From positions 1 through 54,900 of the IMG/VR virus record IMGVR_UViG_3300042555_000963: a DNA stretch of 54,900 nucleotides; one strand, 5' to 3'. Shown in pieces: positions 37,571 to 53,469 of this stretch (its first letter is position 1; every line of letters starts with the position of its first letter). The notes below the pieces were generated by a model. The model did not search any database. It was not told where the DNA came from and worked only from the letters and a program-made list of their open reading frames with translations. Source of the stretch: a virus. Both the position numbers and the translations under genes were made by a program.

Positions 37571-38317
37571 ATGAACAAAAAAGTATCAGAAGTCAGAGTA
37601 ACCACTGACTATTCTATGTTCAAATTTGATCCTTTGAACAGAGATGTAACACCATCAAAGGTGGAAAGACTTAAACCAAGTCTAGCTAGAACTGGGGGTA
37701 ACCTCCAGAGCGTCTTGATTGATGCAAAAGGTTATATTATAGACGGCCAACACAGAGTGGTTGCTTGCAAAGAACTTAAACTACCGGTTCGTTATGAAAT
37801 AAAAGCAGGTGGTTATACATCTAAAGACATCGTAGAAATCAACAACAACCAGAACGACTGGACGCTTAGTAACTACGCTTCTTTATATGCAAAAGAAGGT
37901 AACATCAACTACCAGATCTATCTGAAATACCGTAAGCTATTTCCAGACTTCAAAGAAGGGGTATTAAGTGCCATCCTGGAAAACAAATACAGTCTTACTA
38001 ACAATACTTCTGGCAGCCTTGCTCACAGAGGATTCCAAAAAGGCATATTGACTGTTGCCCAGGAACCTAAAGCAAAGCTGATGCTGCAAAAGCTGACAGA
38101 GATCGGTGAATTCTATAAAGGATACAACAAGCGTGGATTTGTACATGCTGTTATTCACCTGTCAAATCAACCTGGATTTAGCTGGGACAAGTTTATTACC
38201 AAGATGAAGATCCGTAGTATCAGCTTGTTTGACTATCCTAAAGCAACAGACTTTGTAAAAGCGCTTACAGAGATATACAACTACCGTGAGCGTAACAAGA
38301 TCACCTTTAATGTGTAA
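37571..38317 (+). CDS. ParB-like nuclease-domain protein
   Basis: This 248-residue protein has an N-terminal ParB/sulfiredoxin-type domain. FKFDPLNRDVTPSKVERLKP is followed by NLQSVLIDAKGYIIDGQHRVVACKEL, and the DGQHR motif is the nucleotide-binding core of the fold. The C-terminal half is helical and basic, without the ParB HTH. Such stand-alone phage proteins may regulate transcription or cut DNA. It lies between structured RNA B and the tRNA-like/tmRNA region. Confidence 0.75.
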   Translation: MNKKVSEVRVTTDYSMFKFDPLNRDVTPSKVERLKPSLARTGGNLQSVLIDAKGYIIDGQHRVVACKELKLPVRYEIKAGGYTSKDIVEINNNQNDWTLSNYASLYAKEGNINYQIYLKYRKLFPDFKEGVLSAILENKYSLTNNTSGSLAHRGFQKGILTVAQEPKAKLMLQKLTEIGEFYKGYNKRGFVHAVIHLSNQPGFSWDKFITKMKIRSISLFDYPKATDFVKALTEIYNYRERNKITFNV

Positions 38318-38320
38318 CGT

Positions 38321-38533
38321 ATGAACAAGCCATTTGTCATAAAAGGCATAATACTATGGGTGCTGCACAGCATCTTAACCGTAGTAATTATGCAGGAAAC
38401 AGTGCAATGCATGAGTCAACCTCTGCCATTGTTCACTTTTATTGTTTGCTATCTCATTATGTTGGTAGCATTCTACTGGTTCATATGGCATACGTTTAAG
38501 TGTCTGATTTATTTCAGAGACCACTATAAATAA
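38321..38533 (+). CDS. Small membrane protein
   Basis: This is a 70-residue protein with two hydrophobic spans (IKGIILWVLHSILTVVIM; FTFIVCYLIMLVAFYWFIW) and a basic end. It is 3 nt past the ParB-like gene and probably co-transcribed. Likely an inner-membrane protein; function unknown. Confidence 0.6.
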   Translation: MNKPFVIKGIILWVLHSILTVVIMQETVQCMSQPLPLFTFIVCYLIMLVAFYWFIWHTFKCLIYFRDHYK

Positions 38534-38667
38534 TTACTGTGTTTTTATTAAGATCAGAATAACCTGGGCATGACCTGGTAGGCGTCTGGTAGAGATCATA
38601 GTAACTCATTGTCTGTATGTTGAAACTAACTCTTAGAACGTAATACATATAGACTTTCAGCTTGGAA

Positions 38668-38707
38668 CACTTGTGCTGTTAAACAGGTGTATGGTAGTGA
38701 TCTACCA
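38668..38707 (+). ncRNA. Two-hairpin RNA module, copy 1
   Basis: CACTTGT (38668) pairs with ACAGGTG (38683), 7 bp. Then TGGTAG-TGAT-CTACCA forms a 6-bp hairpin with 4-nt loop. The same layout recurs at 38858. It ends 4 nt before the tRNA-Ile-like element. The 38534-38667 stretch upstream shows no gene and no clear helix. Confidence 0.5.
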
Positions 38708-38711
38708 AGCA

Positions 38712-38786
38712 GCCGAGATAGCTTAACTATGAGAGAGTCCTTGACTGATAATCTTGGCGGTGCAGGTGCAAACCCTGCTTTCGGCT
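38712..38786 (+). tRNA. tRNA-like element, Ile (GAT) type, degenerate
   Basis: Acceptor GCCGAGA/TTTCGGC (7 bp, one G-U), TA linker, D-arm-like GCTT...GAGA, anticodon loop CTGATAA (anticodon GAT), 5-nt variable loop, and T-arm GCAGG-TGCAAAC-CCTGC. The anticodon stem CTTGA/TCTTG has two T-T mismatches and the D-stem one mismatch. It may be a decayed tRNA-Ile or a tRNA mimic. No CCA is encoded. Confidence 0.5.
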
Positions 38787-38857
38787 CTGCTCTTGATGTA
38801 GAGGCTAACTATATCAGGTTTACCATAGTTGAACCTTAATCAGCTGGAGGACTGGAC

Positions 38858-38897
38858 CACTTGTTCCTACAATACAGGTGTGAGGATCTTAATCCTC
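38858..38897 (+). ncRNA. Two-hairpin RNA module, copy 2
   Basis: CACTTGT (38858) and ACAGGTG (38874) pair exactly as in copy 1. Then GAGGAT-CTTA-ATCCTC, again 6 bp with a 4-nt loop but of different sequence. It ends 3 nt before the next tRNA-like element. Confidence 0.5.
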
Positions 38898-38900
38898 GTT

Positions 38901-39011
38901 TACTCCTTAGCTCAGATGAATAAGGACCTGCACTGATAACGCAGCCACCTGTTTAAGTTAGAGCACCGGCCGATTAAGCCGGAGGTCCCTGGGGCGGAAC
39001 CAGGAGGAGTA
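38901..39011 (+). ncRNA. tRNA-like element with enlarged D-loop
   Basis: Acceptor TACTCCT/AGGAGTA (7 bp), TA linker, D-stem GCTC/GAGC, anticodon stem CCGGC/GCCGG with 7-nt loop CGATTAA, 5-nt variable loop AGGTC, T-stem CCTGG/CCAGG. All stems are perfect. The D-loop is 47 nt instead of about 9 and holds a second hairpin, CTGC-ACTGATAAC-GCAG. The T-loop GGCGGAA lacks TTC, and position 33 is G. It is unlikely to be a normal tRNA. Confidence 0.5.
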
Positions 39012-39016
39012 TCTAC

Positions 39017-39456
39017 GGGGCCGTCTTGGCATTTGATCCGTATGAGAATGGTAGTATCACATGCAAGCCCTGGAACGGGTAAACAAGTTCCGAAAAATAA
39101 ACGCAAAGACTAAGTCTCAGCGTGTTGAAGAAGGTGCAAGCATCATTGCTATGGCCTTCAGCCGTGTAGCAGTAGCTGCATAGTCAACGGGGTCCGCTGG
39201 ACCTGGCAACAGAAACAGCAAGCCGTAAGGTACTCTGATACTGACAGCTCTTAGGAGTGATGGGTGTGAAAGCAGAGTGAATGACTACATCGCCCCAGCC
39301 TTACAAATGTTTTCTCTGTTATGTCAAAACAGAGTGGTGGATGGTGAGCAAAACCTGCGCACCCCAAACTACTGATCAGCTTGCAGATCTAAGCATGTAA
39401 AAATGGTATTATGATTACTTACGGAGACACCGGTTCGATTCCGGTCGGCTCCACCA
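39017..39456 (+). ncRNA. ssrA: tmRNA (transfer-messenger RNA) with 26-residue tag
   Basis: The tRNA-like domain has acceptor GGGGCCG (39017) with CGGCTCC, giving a G3-U70 pair, the alanine identity signal. It also has T-arm ACCGG-TTCGATT-CCGGT and an encoded CCA end. Helix 2 is CCGTA (39038) with TACGG (39420), extended by ACATGC (39059) and GCATGT (39393). The tag frame runs from GCA 39103 to TAG 39181 and encodes 26 residues, starting AKTKSQRVEE and ending SRVAVAA. The VAVAA end resembles the ALAA degron read by ClpXP. It rescues stalled ribosomes. The tag is long and unlike the short tag (about GENNYALAA) expected of Bacteroidota hosts. Confidence 0.9.
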
Positions 39457-39484: not shown

Positions 39485-39518
39485 CCCTCCTGTGTTTCTA
39501 CACTGGGAGGTATTTTAT
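39485..39518 (+). terminator. Terminator-like hairpin after tmRNA
   Basis: CCTCC...GGAGG with inner GTGT/ACAC, then TATTTTAT. It lies about 30 nt after the tmRNA CCA end. Confidence 0.6.
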
Positions 39519-49226: not shown

Positions 49227-49943
49227 ATGACACAAACTGTAGATCTTGAAGAAATTAAACTAAAACTTATAGAGCGTCTGAAACCATCAGGCTGGGCTAC
49301 CAAGCTCCGTTCCTTTATCAACAGCACGCATTTTGACCAGATCCTGGAAGCACTCTACAATGAGCGGGAAGCTGGTAAACGTTTCACTCCTCCACTAAGA
49401 GACGTGTTCCGTGCATTTGAAGAGTGCCCGGTAGACAAACTGCGTATCGTCATGATAGGTCAGGATCCTTATCCTTACCTGGACGTAGCAGATGGTATTG
49501 CTTTTTCCTGCAGTAAAGGAACCAAGGTGCAACCCAGTTTGCAAAAGATGTTTGAAGCTATCGAGCATACAGTATACCAGGAGTATCCTACACATATGGA
49601 TCCAAACCTGCAGCGCTGGTCCAACCAGGGCATTTTAATGCTGAACAAAGCATTGACTTGCCAGGTAGACAAGGTGGGGTCACACTACGACATCTGGAAT
49701 GACTTTATCATGTATGTTATTGACATCTTGAACTTCACTAACTCCGGACTGATATTCGTTTTACTGGGACAAAAAGCCCAGGAGATCGAAAGTTGTATCA
49801 ACCAAAGTCATTATATACTCAAAGCTTCACACCCTGCAAGTGCAGCCTACACCAAAAGCATGTGGGATTGCAATGATCTGTTTAACGAGGCCAACAGAAT
49901 CATTTCTCAAAACAACGGTCCTCAGTTTAAAATCGAGTGGTAA
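49227..49943 (+). CDS. ung: Uracil-DNA glycosylase, family 1
   Basis: This is a 238-residue protein with catalytic motif GQDPYP (78-83, Asp80 activates water), QGILMLN (134-140) and the DNA-intercalation motif HPAS (202-205). LASQ-type usual HPSPLS is thus altered. It removes uracil from DNA, so phage DNA is expected not to be uracil-rich. Length and layout match bacterial Ung. It begins a unit with the MoxR/VWA genes. Divergent from the inverted 97-residue gene. Confidence 0.93.
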   Translation: MTQTVDLEEIKLKLIERLKPSGWATKLRSFINSTHFDQILEALYNEREAGKRFTPPLRDVFRAFEECPVDKLRIVMIGQDPYPYLDVADGIAFSCSKGTKVQPSLQKMFEAIEHTVYQEYPTHMDPNLQRWSNQGILMLNKALTCQVDKVGSHYDIWNDFIMYVIDILNFTNSGLIFVLLGQKAQEIESCINQSHYILKASHPASAAYTKSMWDCNDLFNEANRIISQNNGPQFKIEW

Positions 49944-49965: not shown

Positions 49966-50313
49966 ATGGCAGTAGAACAAGTACAACTGGGCGTAACAAC
50001 GATAAAAGAATTATTAGCAACCGGCTATACCTGGTTTAAGAAGGACGATCTGGGCTTTGGCTCTATTCAGGAAAAGTATTTGGCGTCTGATATACAAATC
50101 AACACCATCCGTAAACACCCGGCTCTAAGAGACCTGGAAACTACAGCAAGAGTATTTGTAATCATAGACGACACAAAAAATGAAACCACTTTGGAAACCA
50201 GCCAACCCGCACCTCAAGGGTCAGGGAATAATACACCTGAACAATTATTACCTGTGGAGCACAACACAACAGAAGTGGAAACTGATTCATTCGCAGCCTT
50301 CGCAAACCTCTAG
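49966..50313 (+). CDS. Small hypothetical protein
   Basis: Start ATG 49966 (MAVEQVQLGVTTIKELLATG, 115 residues), 22 nt past ung. N-terminal alpha/beta half (TWFKKDDLGFGSIQEKYLAS; RDLETTARVFVIIDD) and a disordered, acidic, Pro/Gln-rich tail (TSQPAPQGSGNNTPEQLL). It stops one base before the next ATG. It may be a partner of the MoxR/VWA proteins by position. Confidence 0.58.
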   Translation: MAVEQVQLGVTTIKELLATGYTWFKKDDLGFGSIQEKYLASDIQINTIRKHPALRDLETTARVFVIIDDTKNETTLETSQPAPQGSGNNTPEQLLPVEHNTTEVETDSFAAFANL

Positions 50314-50314
50314 T

Positions 50315-51910
50315 ATGAGACCATCACCAACAGCAAGTGCTACCAGTTATCCGGTAGGTACACGTATGAACGGCAATGATGGAATGCCTTGGGAAATTGT
50401 TGCAACTTCTAATGGTGTACAGCGATGGGTCCGGGCCAAAGTACCCTTTCAACCACTTAATCTTTCTTCTACTATGATAAAGATAAACCCATTTGAAGTG
50501 GGAGACATAGTGGAAGTAGTCAAAAGCGGTTCTGGTTGCGGCCAGGACGAAATCGGTATACAGGCCACTGTCACTGAACTGGGTATGTATTATCCAGGCG
50601 TTGCTGGCGTCAAAGTGCACCCTCATATCGGTAATACCAAATCTTATATAGAAAACGGCAATAAACATACCAGCTTTCACAGCGGGTTTATTGCTTGTGA
50701 ATCTTTCAAACTCGTTATCAGGCCCATGCCTGCAGAAAACTCTCCACAAACTTTTAAACTCAATCAGAACATGTCTAAAGTTAAGACAATCAACAAGAAA
50801 TCAGCACAGGAAGTGCGTAGTATTGACACCTCTTTGATCAACAAGGAAGAAGTATTTAAGATGCTTGCTCTTGCAGAGAGTACCGGTCTGCCATTATTAT
50901 TAGTGGGTCAGCCCGGGGTTGCTAAAACCAAATCAGTACTCGACTATGCAAAAGCCTGGTTGAACAGAGACGGTAAAATGTCTGCTGCAGATTTTAACAA
51001 CAAAATATATATCCTTGAGACCGATGAAGGTACCAAGGCATCTGAGATCAAGGGTATGCCTGCTCTTGACAAACTATTCACCGAGAACCAGTATGAGATC
51101 CATGCACCGATTGCCGATGCAGAGATCGTTATCATCAACGAGGTGGACAAAGCAAGCTCTGCTATCCGTAATGCCATGCTTGGTGTTATGAACGAGAAGT
51201 TTCTCTTCAACGGTAAAAACAAAATCCCATGTAAGTGGAAGCTTTTTGTTGCTACCTGTAACGAGATTCCTAAAGAAGAAGCAAACTCTCCTTTCTGGGA
51301 CCGCTTCATGCTGAAACACACTGTAAACCGTGTATCTGCCGGTGAGTTAGTTAAGTACTACAACAAAGGTGCACGCGAATACAAAGAAAGCTACAAGATT
51401 GGCATTCCTACCAAAACAGAAATCAATGCTGTAGAGATACCAACCAACAAGCTGGAAAAGTATTTAGAAGTGGGTTACCAGCACAGCTCTGACCGTACTC
51501 TAACATTTGTACCAACGCTTACCAAAGCAGTGAGCTACATCTGGGATGTATCAACAGACAAAGCCCTTGTAAAGACAGCACAGATCATGATCTCTCAGAA
51601 CGCAGGTTCAGAGCTTCAGAATAAACTGATGTCACCGGAAGTAAAGACTGTGATGAGCAAAGTGGAGATGTTACATTCTTACACCAGCAACGAACAGCTC
51701 GAGCTGGCAGTAGCTGAGATCGAAAGCCTGATCAACACGTATACATCACGCAATATGATGGACGAAGGACAGGTGGAAGAAATCGAAATGAGCATGCAGT
51801 ACATCATCTCTACTCACCCTGCACGTAAAGACTATCAAACTTCAGAAGAGTTTGACCAGATGATTGCAGAATCTGTTGTATCAGATATGCCAGTTGAAGC
51901 AACATTCTAA
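50315..51910 (+). CDS. MoxR-family AAA+ ATPase with N-terminal extension
   Basis: The frame is open from ATG 50315 (531 residues); an internal ATG at 50771 (MSKVKTINKKSAQE) would give a 379-residue ATPase alone. Residues 1-150 are beta-rich (KINPFEVGDIVEVVKSGSGC) and SH3-like. ATPase: Walker A GQPGVAKT (198-205), Walker B IVIINEVDKA (271-280), sensor 1 ATCNEI (313-318), Arg330 in FWDRF. MoxR ATPases act with VWA proteins as chaperone-like remodelers. The VWA gene follows directly. A terminator lies between them. Confidence 0.85.
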   Translation: MRPSPTASATSYPVGTRMNGNDGMPWEIVATSNGVQRWVRAKVPFQPLNLSSTMIKINPFEVGDIVEVVKSGSGCGQDEIGIQATVTELGMYYPGVAGVKVHPHIGNTKSYIENGNKHTSFHSGFIACESFKLVIRPMPAENSPQTFKLNQNMSKVKTINKKSAQEVRSIDTSLINKEEVFKMLALAESTGLPLLLVGQPGVAKTKSVLDYAKAWLNRDGKMSAADFNNKIYILETDEGTKASEIKGMPALDKLFTENQYEIHAPIADAEIVIINEVDKASSAIRNAMLGVMNEKFLFNGKNKIPCKWKLFVATCNEIPKEEANSPFWDRFMLKHTVNRVSAGELVKYYNKGAREYKESYKIGIPTKTEINAVEIPTNKLEKYLEVGYQHSSDRTLTFVPTLTKAVSYIWDVSTDKALVKTAQIMISQNAGSELQNKLMSPEVKTVMSKVEMLHSYTSNEQLELAVAEIESLINTYTSRNMMDEGQVEEIEMSMQYIISTHPARKDYQTSEEFDQMIAESVVSDMPVEATF

Positions 51911-51918
51911 ATAACACA

Positions 51919-51953
51919 GATGACCGGAACTAAACACTCCGGTCATCTTTTTA
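51919..51953 (+). terminator. Intrinsic terminator between MoxR and VWA genes
   Basis: GATGACCGG / CCGGTCATC perfect 9-bp stem with 11-nt loop, then TTTTT. It may attenuate rather than fully stop transcription into the VWA gene. Confidence 0.85.
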
Positions 51954-51963
51954 AATCAAGTAT

Positions 51964-53469
51964 ATGGCTGCTAAAAGCAAACAATATAAAAACGTATACA
52001 CCATCCTTGAGAAAGTCAAGAAGGGTGAAATACAATCACACTATAAAGCCGATGATGGTGGTTTGTTTGGTAAGCTGAACTTTTATAAAAAAGCAGATCT
52101 TATCAAGCCATACATCCATTACATAGATGAGACCAAGATCTCAAGCATTGTGAATAAAGAGATCTACAGCATGGAGTCTATCAAAGAATACTACAACCGG
52201 TTTGCCCGCAGTACAGCTTTTGATAAACTAGACCAGGATAAAAAACCTGACATGAATGCATTTCATACCAAGCTGCAACAGAACTATAGAAAGTTTCCTG
52301 AGCACATGAAGTATGACATTCACAAGATGTATTACAACAAGATCGACAAGCTTGAATTTGAAGAGCGTACTGATAAAAACAATACGCGTTACAAGTTCCT
52401 AGAGAAAGCTAACAATCCTGTAGGTAAGATTATGTCTGAAGGGTCCAACCTAAAAAGCGCCATCTTTACCAAACAGATGATGCTCTACTACATGATGCAG
52501 ATGACCATGATGGAATACATTGATCCGGAAGCTCATCAGCAAATGCAGAACGGTCTGGGTGGTGGTGACGATAATCAGTTCAACCAAGACGATATCGACA
52601 ATGCCATGGATAAAATGCTCAACAATCAGCTGAGCAAGAACATGCTGGATAAAGCTATGAAAGATGCACAGGATACCTGTAATATGATGGACCAGCACGT
52701 TGATAAAGAAACCCAGGAAAAACTTTTTGAAGACTCCTATAAAGGTGGTAGCGGTCAACCTGCAAAGCTCTCTCCGGATTATTTCCGAAAAGTTGCTGAA
52801 AGACTCGAGCGTATTAATATCTCTATGGGTTCACTCAAAGAAAAGTTACAAAAGCTTTTGGACAAGAGTGCTGCATATTTTTCTGCACGCAAAGAAACCA
52901 TCTATGATGATCTGCTTAACTCCCAGGATGTTTCCGGACTTGAAGATTATATACTACTGCATCCCAAGCTACGTACGATATTTTTAGAAGACATCCAGAT
53001 CAAAGACTACAAGTATGTGGGCAAGATCGATGTCTATATAGATGTATCAGGATCTATGTCCAGCAGCTGTGGTGTAGTGAATACAGAAGACAGGTATATC
53101 TCCAAGATAGATTTTGCTAAGTCTATGGTTGCTAAACTAAAACAACTGGACATGCTAAACGATGTCTACTTGTTTGATACACGCGTTAAGAAATACCGCA
53201 ACGACCTGATATCTATCTCTATGATAGATTGTGGTGGCGGTACAACTATTGACAACGCAGTACGTAACATTGAACTTATAGGTAACAACGCTTTAGTGAT
53301 TACTGATGCAGAAGATCATTGCAGCATCTACTCAGAAAAAGCATTCTTTATTGGTGTAGAAGGAGCAAGGTTTAACTCCTTTGACGAGAAGTACATGGAT
53401 AAAGGACAATGTATCATATTTAACGGATCACGTATATATCAAGTAGGGTTAGATGGAAAAGCTGTCTAG
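51964..53469 (+). CDS. VWA-domain protein, MoxR partner
   Basis: This is a 501-residue protein. Residues 1-330 are helical and charged. From ~355 a von Willebrand A domain follows with MIDAS motif DVSGSMSSS (Asp360), then GGGTTIDNAV (Thr near 423) and ITDAED (Asp near 448). All metal-coordinating positions appear present. With the adjacent AAA+ gene this forms a RavA/ViaA- or CoxD/CoxE-like pair that may remodel or load metal into a target. The target in a phage is unknown. Confidence 0.85.
   Translation: MAAKSKQYKNVYTILEKVKKGEIQSHYKADDGGLFGKLNFYKKADLIKPYIHYIDETKISSIVNKEIYSMESIKEYYNRFARSTAFDKLDQDKKPDMNAFHTKLQQNYRKFPEHMKYDIHKMYYNKIDKLEFEERTDKNNTRYKFLEKANNPVGKIMSEGSNLKSAIFTKQMMLYYMMQMTMMEYIDPEAHQQMQNGLGGGDDNQFNQDDIDNAMDKMLNNQLSKNMLDKAMKDAQDTCNMMDQHVDKETQEKLFEDSYKGGSGQPAKLSPDYFRKVAERLERINISMGSLKEKLQKLLDKSAAYFSARKETIYDDLLNSQDVSGLEDYILLHPKLRTIFLEDIQIKDYKYVGKIDVYIDVSGSMSSSCGVVNTEDRYISKIDFAKSMVAKLKQLDMLNDVYLFDTRVKKYRNDLISISMIDCGGGTTIDNAVRNIELIGNNALVITDAEDHCSIYSEKAFFIGVEGARFNSFDEKYMDKGQCIIFNGSRIYQVGLDGKAV

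Follow-up and report, generated by a model that had tools for sequence, protein, structure and literature searches.

A phage tmRNA with a 26-residue tag and its conserved family in related phages

What might a tmRNA tag of 26 residues do for a phage? Few phages have an annotated tmRNA (402 of 18,146; PMC9004378), and phage tmRNAs have been proposed to maintain the translation machinery that the phage has taken over and to recycle host proteins (PMC9004378). The commonest length of a tmRNA tag is 10 residues (PMC11915505). The tags of phage tmRNAs have received little attention in the literature that we searched. The stretch of DNA analyzed here, hereafter the window, is a virus record of 54,900 nucleotides (54.9 kb), in which a first-pass annotation made from the sequence alone had placed a tmRNA with an unusually long tag. 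The window tmRNA is real and conserved, and it is part of a wider pattern of long tags, in one lineage linked to an unfoldase, that deserves follow-up. Very probably it is a functional phage tmRNA that would be charged by the host and would tag stalled products for Clp turnover, with the extension of the tag perhaps serving as a recognition or handle segment.

RNA architecture and tag frame

The Rfam tmRNA model RF00023 matches the window at exactly the coordinates first annotated (67 bits, above the cut-off of 47; E 5e-24; Table 1). The alignment spans model positions 1-374, the full length of the model, and is poor in the PK2-PK4 region. A family model, R1, scores the locus at 109 bits with the window copy included in its training set. 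ARAGORN made no call for the window copy and called some of the relatives' tmRNAs, so such genes are easily missed; standard tools overlook many phage tmRNA genes. The G3-U70 acceptor, T-arm, encoded CCA and helix 2 that had been read by eye are all present. The acceptor GGGGCCG/CGGCTCC forms 7/7 pairs, G3-U70 among them. PK1 is made of stem S1 (GCCC 39067-39070 with GGGT 39077-39080) and stem S2 (TGGAAC 39071-39076 with GTTCCG 39087-39092), with p=0.01 against dinucleotide shuffles. The tag frame also reads as first described. It starts with GCA at 39103, its last codon is GCA, and it stops at TAG 39181-39183. A recoded TAG, which would give a 41-residue tag, was considered and rejected because relatives end at the same site with TAA or TGA. 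TAG ends 2 of the 32 larger ORFs of the window, and it does not obviously appear to be recoded in this phage.

Table 1. Positions of the tmRNA, its parts and neighboring features in the window, and of the unfoldase and tmRNA in locus L214.
Feature	Position	Strand	Basis or detail
Phage tmRNA (ssrA), standard one-piece form	39017-39456	+	RF00023 and family model R1
Acceptor stem, 5' strand GGGGCCG	39017-39023	+	pairs with 39446-39452, G3-U70
T-arm ACCGG TTCGATT CCGGT, acceptor 3' strand (39446-39452) and encoded CCA (39454-39456)	39429-39456	+	
Helix 2 strand CATGC	39060-39064	+	pairs with GCATG 39393-39397
PK1 (H-type pseudoknot) ahead of tag	39067-39092	+	
Tag frame, 26 codons and TAG: AKTKSQRVEEGASIIAMAFSRVAVAA	39103-39183	+	frame, length and C-terminus kept in 18 phage tags
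ParB-like gene upstream of tmRNA	37571-38317	+	PHROG ParB-like, synteny, gene-content comparison
Non-coding stretch with tRNA-Ile (38712-38787) and further tRNA-like hairpins	38318-39016	+	
Hairpin followed by T-rich stretch, possible terminator (weak)	39486-39518	+	fold
L214 ClpC-like unfoldase and phage tmRNA	6723-8750 and 11038-11419	both on one strand	

A tag family in related phages

The large terminase of the window has 361 relatives among the IMG/VR candidates scanned. It is 25% identical to Crassvirales terminases over ~90% of the protein, and Flavobacterium and Cellulophaga phages are also among its named relatives. On terminase sequence, the window phage and the phages of its tag family are distant relatives of the Crassvirales. 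Their hosts are likely Bacteroidota-type. Related phage contigs occur in MAGs from several taxa (Chitinophagaceae, Pseudomonadales, Campylobacteraceae), so this assignment leans mainly on the named relatives.

Rfam tmRNA matches were found in 4 of 50 related records, and a profile built from four tags (A1) led to 19 further viral loci, all 19 of which score above the RF00023 cut-off. The tag family of the window is found at 23 other phage loci. Eighteen distinct tags were read, that of the window included; they are 26-27 residues long with the consensus AKTxSxRVAEGEAILASxFxxVAxAA, in which the conserved extension, S-x-R-V-[AE]-E-G...I-[IL]-A..F, covers ~19 residues. A tag query against 84,980 bacterial and archaeal genomes gave no match, and neither did a DNA search with the window tmRNA among named phages. 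The tblastn searches of named phages with 25-26-residue tags were uninformative, as even an annotated mycobacteriophage tag was missed by them.

The tag is conserved across the family at the peptide level, and close relatives keep its frame, whose loss would have spoken against the first-pass annotation. Mean pN is 0.22 and mean pS 0.41 in the tag frame of the 26-residue members, values that come from short related sequences in non-independent pairs, and the other two frames of the region have no comparable pS excess. This pattern shows protein-level purifying selection on the tag frame. The position of the stop is fixed across the family while the codon is TAA, TAG or TGA, members share the resume context AATAAAC|GCA, and 18/18 tags end in Ala-Ala. 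The acceptor stems are fully paired (7/7) in 18/18 members with G3-U70 invariant, and the remaining pairs differ among members (GGGGGTG, GGGCCCG, GGGGCTG, GGGGAAG and others). An equivalent of PK1, of differing sequence, is found in 16/18 members, with p<=0.04 in 14. From the frame-specific selection, the fixed stop, the resume context, the AA ends, the paired stems and the varied PK1 we infer a functional tmRNA family. The tag had first been described as basic. This is a chance property of the window copy, since the net charge of family tags runs from -6 to +2. The family includes a divergent member, L086, with the tag DNTTVELSDMTFDSLMAFIGADEAIAA, and another tag (L097) that ends in the host 5-mer YALAA. 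An amphipathic-helix role of the long tags was also considered and is unsupported (hydrophobic moment against shuffles, 14 family representatives, Stouffer 0.68).

The locus could instead be a decayed or captured host tmRNA that no longer functions, as its low Rfam score would suggest (67 bits, against 130-156 for the best-scoring Chitinophagales copies). This is extremely improbable. Acceptor stems that are intact in 18/18 members and compensatory in sequence, an invariant G3-U70, PK1, the conserved tag and conserved synteny all argue against it, as does the tmRNA of a host MAG, which matches the family model over its 5' part only and not over the tag.

The gene order around the tmRNA points the same way. 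Genes for an HTH protein, a ParB-like protein, the tmRNA and two unknown proteins are syntenic in relatives, and the region is thus phage DNA and not host contamination. With RF00023 and R1, the tmRNA was not found in five relatives of 95-128 kb, four of which (G014, G018, G019 and G042) retain the syntenic stretch as judged by terminase position; a sixth relative, G005, stops short of this stretch and is uninformative. This patchy distribution makes the tmRNA accessory and not essential. The ParB-like gene, immediately upstream, follows the tmRNA best. It is present in the window and in 4/5 near-full-length relatives that have the tmRNA, against 0/4 of those that lack it, a comparison of small numbers between adjacent genes. 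The two may be gained and lost together simply as neighbors, and an accessory cassette is possible.

Other features of the window were noted in passing. By hand reading, 38910-39010 resembles a tRNA with ~40 extra D-loop bases and an odd anticodon loop. A terminator scan did not flag the hairpin downstream of the tmRNA. A uracil-DNA glycosylase superfamily protein (Pfam UDG) is encoded at 49227-49943. Positions 50180-53469 encode a MoxR-type AAA ATPase (Pfam bpMoxR) and then a protein of 501 residues, whose DVSGSMS motif is vWA-like by eye; the two may form a MoxR-vWA pair in the phage.

Tag length in bacterial and phage tmRNAs

The expectation that Bacteroidota tags are much shorter is borne out. 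Tags called by ARAGORN have 8-9 residues in Chitinophagales (30 calls, one of which looks wrong), 9-14 residues in Bacteroidota (one call looks wrong; 9-10 generally) and 10-15 residues in Pseudomonadota, and 18 additional low-scoring bacterial copies have tags of 9-13 residues. Host-type tags (G[EN]xxYA[ML]AA or similar) have 8-10 residues, two dubious calls aside, against 26 in the window, whose tag is about threefold the length of those in the likely hosts. The description of the tag as unusually long therefore holds against bacteria, where 0/89 tags reach at least 20 residues, and fails among phage tmRNAs. In viral contigs sampled by two generic tmRNA patterns, 34/92 tags have at least 20 residues, the short-tag contigs including prophage edges that carry host genes; the nominal p of 3e-12 for this difference is too small owing to relatedness. 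In a larger sample, 33/77 distinct standard-form tags reach this length, and tags of at least 20 residues fall into five multi-member standard-form families plus singletons. R1 connects the family of the window to several of the long-tag families. Long tags are frequent in phage tmRNAs, as these counts support, and not universal: the tag of Streptomyces phage Wakanda has 11 residues. The longest tags seen have 34 residues by hand reading (AKAITNAVKSVKSFVTNMAESLFACEDELCLMAA; L211:5229-5606 and L226:5936-6313).

With bacterial tmRNA, as modeled in RF00023, the window tmRNA shares the G3-U70 tRNA-like domain, helix 2, PK1 and a tag frame with a stop and an ...AA end. It differs by its 26-residue tag, low model score and phage location. 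The tmRNA of mycobacteriophages (Bixzunavirus, e.g., Shifa) is likewise phage-borne, of standard form and long-tagged. However, the 25-residue tag of Shifa, ATDTDATVTDAEIEAFFAEEAAALV, is unrelated to that of the window; it is acidic and ends in ALV, and the gene lies within a large tRNA cluster. Phage-borne tmRNAs are also found in Melnitz and the pelagimyophages and, among the related Crassvirales, in cr7_1, cr124_1 and Bohxovirus. Unlike the window tmRNA, these are permuted two-piece molecules (PMC9004378). A 13-residue tag was called in cr7_1 and cr124_1. The permuted form was recovered with RF04321 in the loci from cr7_1, cr124_1 and Bohxovirus (L277, L278 and L282; 63-71 bits), and the one in Bohxovirus has no annotation.

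Fate of tagged products and an unfoldase-linked lineage

SmpB was not found in 21 phage records, and host SmpB would have to serve these phages. A Chitinophagaceae MAG that contains a contig of a related phage, and that may not represent the host of the window phage, has SmpB and a tmRNA with the 9-residue tag GENTYAMAA. In the proposed mechanism, host alanyl-tRNA synthetase would charge the phage tmRNA through G3-U70, and during infection host SmpB and EF-Tu would deliver it to ribosomes that have stalled on broken mRNAs. The ribosome would restart at GCA 39103 and release the truncated protein with a tail of 27 residues (Ala plus 26). The ...AA end would then pass the tagged protein to the host Clp protease, and for the phage the outcome would be ribosomes that stay active and fragments that are cleared. 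In the E. coli tag, the terminal Ala-Ala is the main ClpXP determinant (PMC7652416).

The lack of phage SmpB could also be read as a sign of competition, in which the phage tmRNA chiefly outcompetes host tmRNA for SmpB and the tag is secondary. There is a precedent in a tag-less tmRNA-like RNA of phage DS6A, which, like other molecules of its kind, inhibits host tmRNA, perhaps through titration of SmpB (PMC4131195). Yet a pure decoy would need neither peptide-level selection on the tag nor a fixed stop position, and we consider it very unlikely as the chief role.

In the mechanism of tagging for host Clp turnover, the role of the extension is the part that we infer from its conservation. It may be a phage-specific segment that makes a second contact with an unfoldase or an adaptor, much as one half of the E. 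coli tag binds SspB; to such a contact we give real weight but less than even chances. The first-pass annotation had proposed that the tagged products could meet a different fate. The long tag might stabilize them or send them to a protease or adaptor of the phage's choice and not to host Clp turnover. The extension is indeed conserved residue by residue, more than a C-degron requires, and a second phage lineage combines tags that mostly do not end in AA with a ClpC-like unfoldase of its own. In the family of the window, however, 18/18 tags end in ...AA, and no ClpB_D2-small unfoldase was found in the records searched. The conserved ...AA argues for ordinary Clp degradation as the probable fate, and a different one is unlikely.

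The second lineage (L214, L494-L573) shares with the window a phage tmRNA with a long conserved tag. Its tags have 21-22 residues with the pattern GNVxNKMxxxGLxRxSEVTVA (e.g., GNVLNKMETLGLVRESEVTVA) and, unlike that of the window, end in -VA, with only 2/37 ending in AA; a phage ClpC-like unfoldase lies ~2.4 kb upstream. The unfoldase is a ClpC-like double AAA+ protein without the N-domain. Its best solved relative is ClpC, aligned from ClpC residue 157, and its GVGF segment lines up with AGF in S. aureus ClpC, which we take to be the ClpP-binding loop. In a search that started from the unfoldase, 62/80 loci had a tmRNA by model R2, which was partly trained on loci of the tested set. Among loci with at least 3.5 kb of downstream sequence, the tmRNA was present in 52/53, on the same strand and at a median of 2.4 kb downstream. 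This linkage makes a phage-specific tag-and-unfoldase pathway testable.

A broader proposal is that standard-form phage tmRNAs form a class of their own, with long family-specific tags as private degrons that are either bipartite (extension plus AxAA), as in the window, or paired with an unfoldase. We advance it tentatively and think it rather doubtful. If it is true, some lineages pair a tag without Ala-Ala with their own ClpC-like unfoldase, and the bipartite tag of the window would combine a phage extension with a host-type AxAA, for recognition by an adaptor from either the host or the phage. The conserved long tags and the unfoldase-linked lineage make the purpose of phage tmRNA a testable question of phage-controlled protein turnover. 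We found no report of long family-specific phage tags, or of a lineage with its own unfoldase, in the literature searched, which was mostly without subscription journals.

GOLLD RNA (RF02032, 275-312 bits) was also observed near some of these genes. On the minus strand at L528:12898-13311 it is 155 nt from the phage tmRNA. In two huge-phage genomes, LR745206 and LR756502 (L620:5535-5940 and L621:2016-2422), it lies within a few kb of a ClpC-like unfoldase, with no RF00023 match in the stretch searched.
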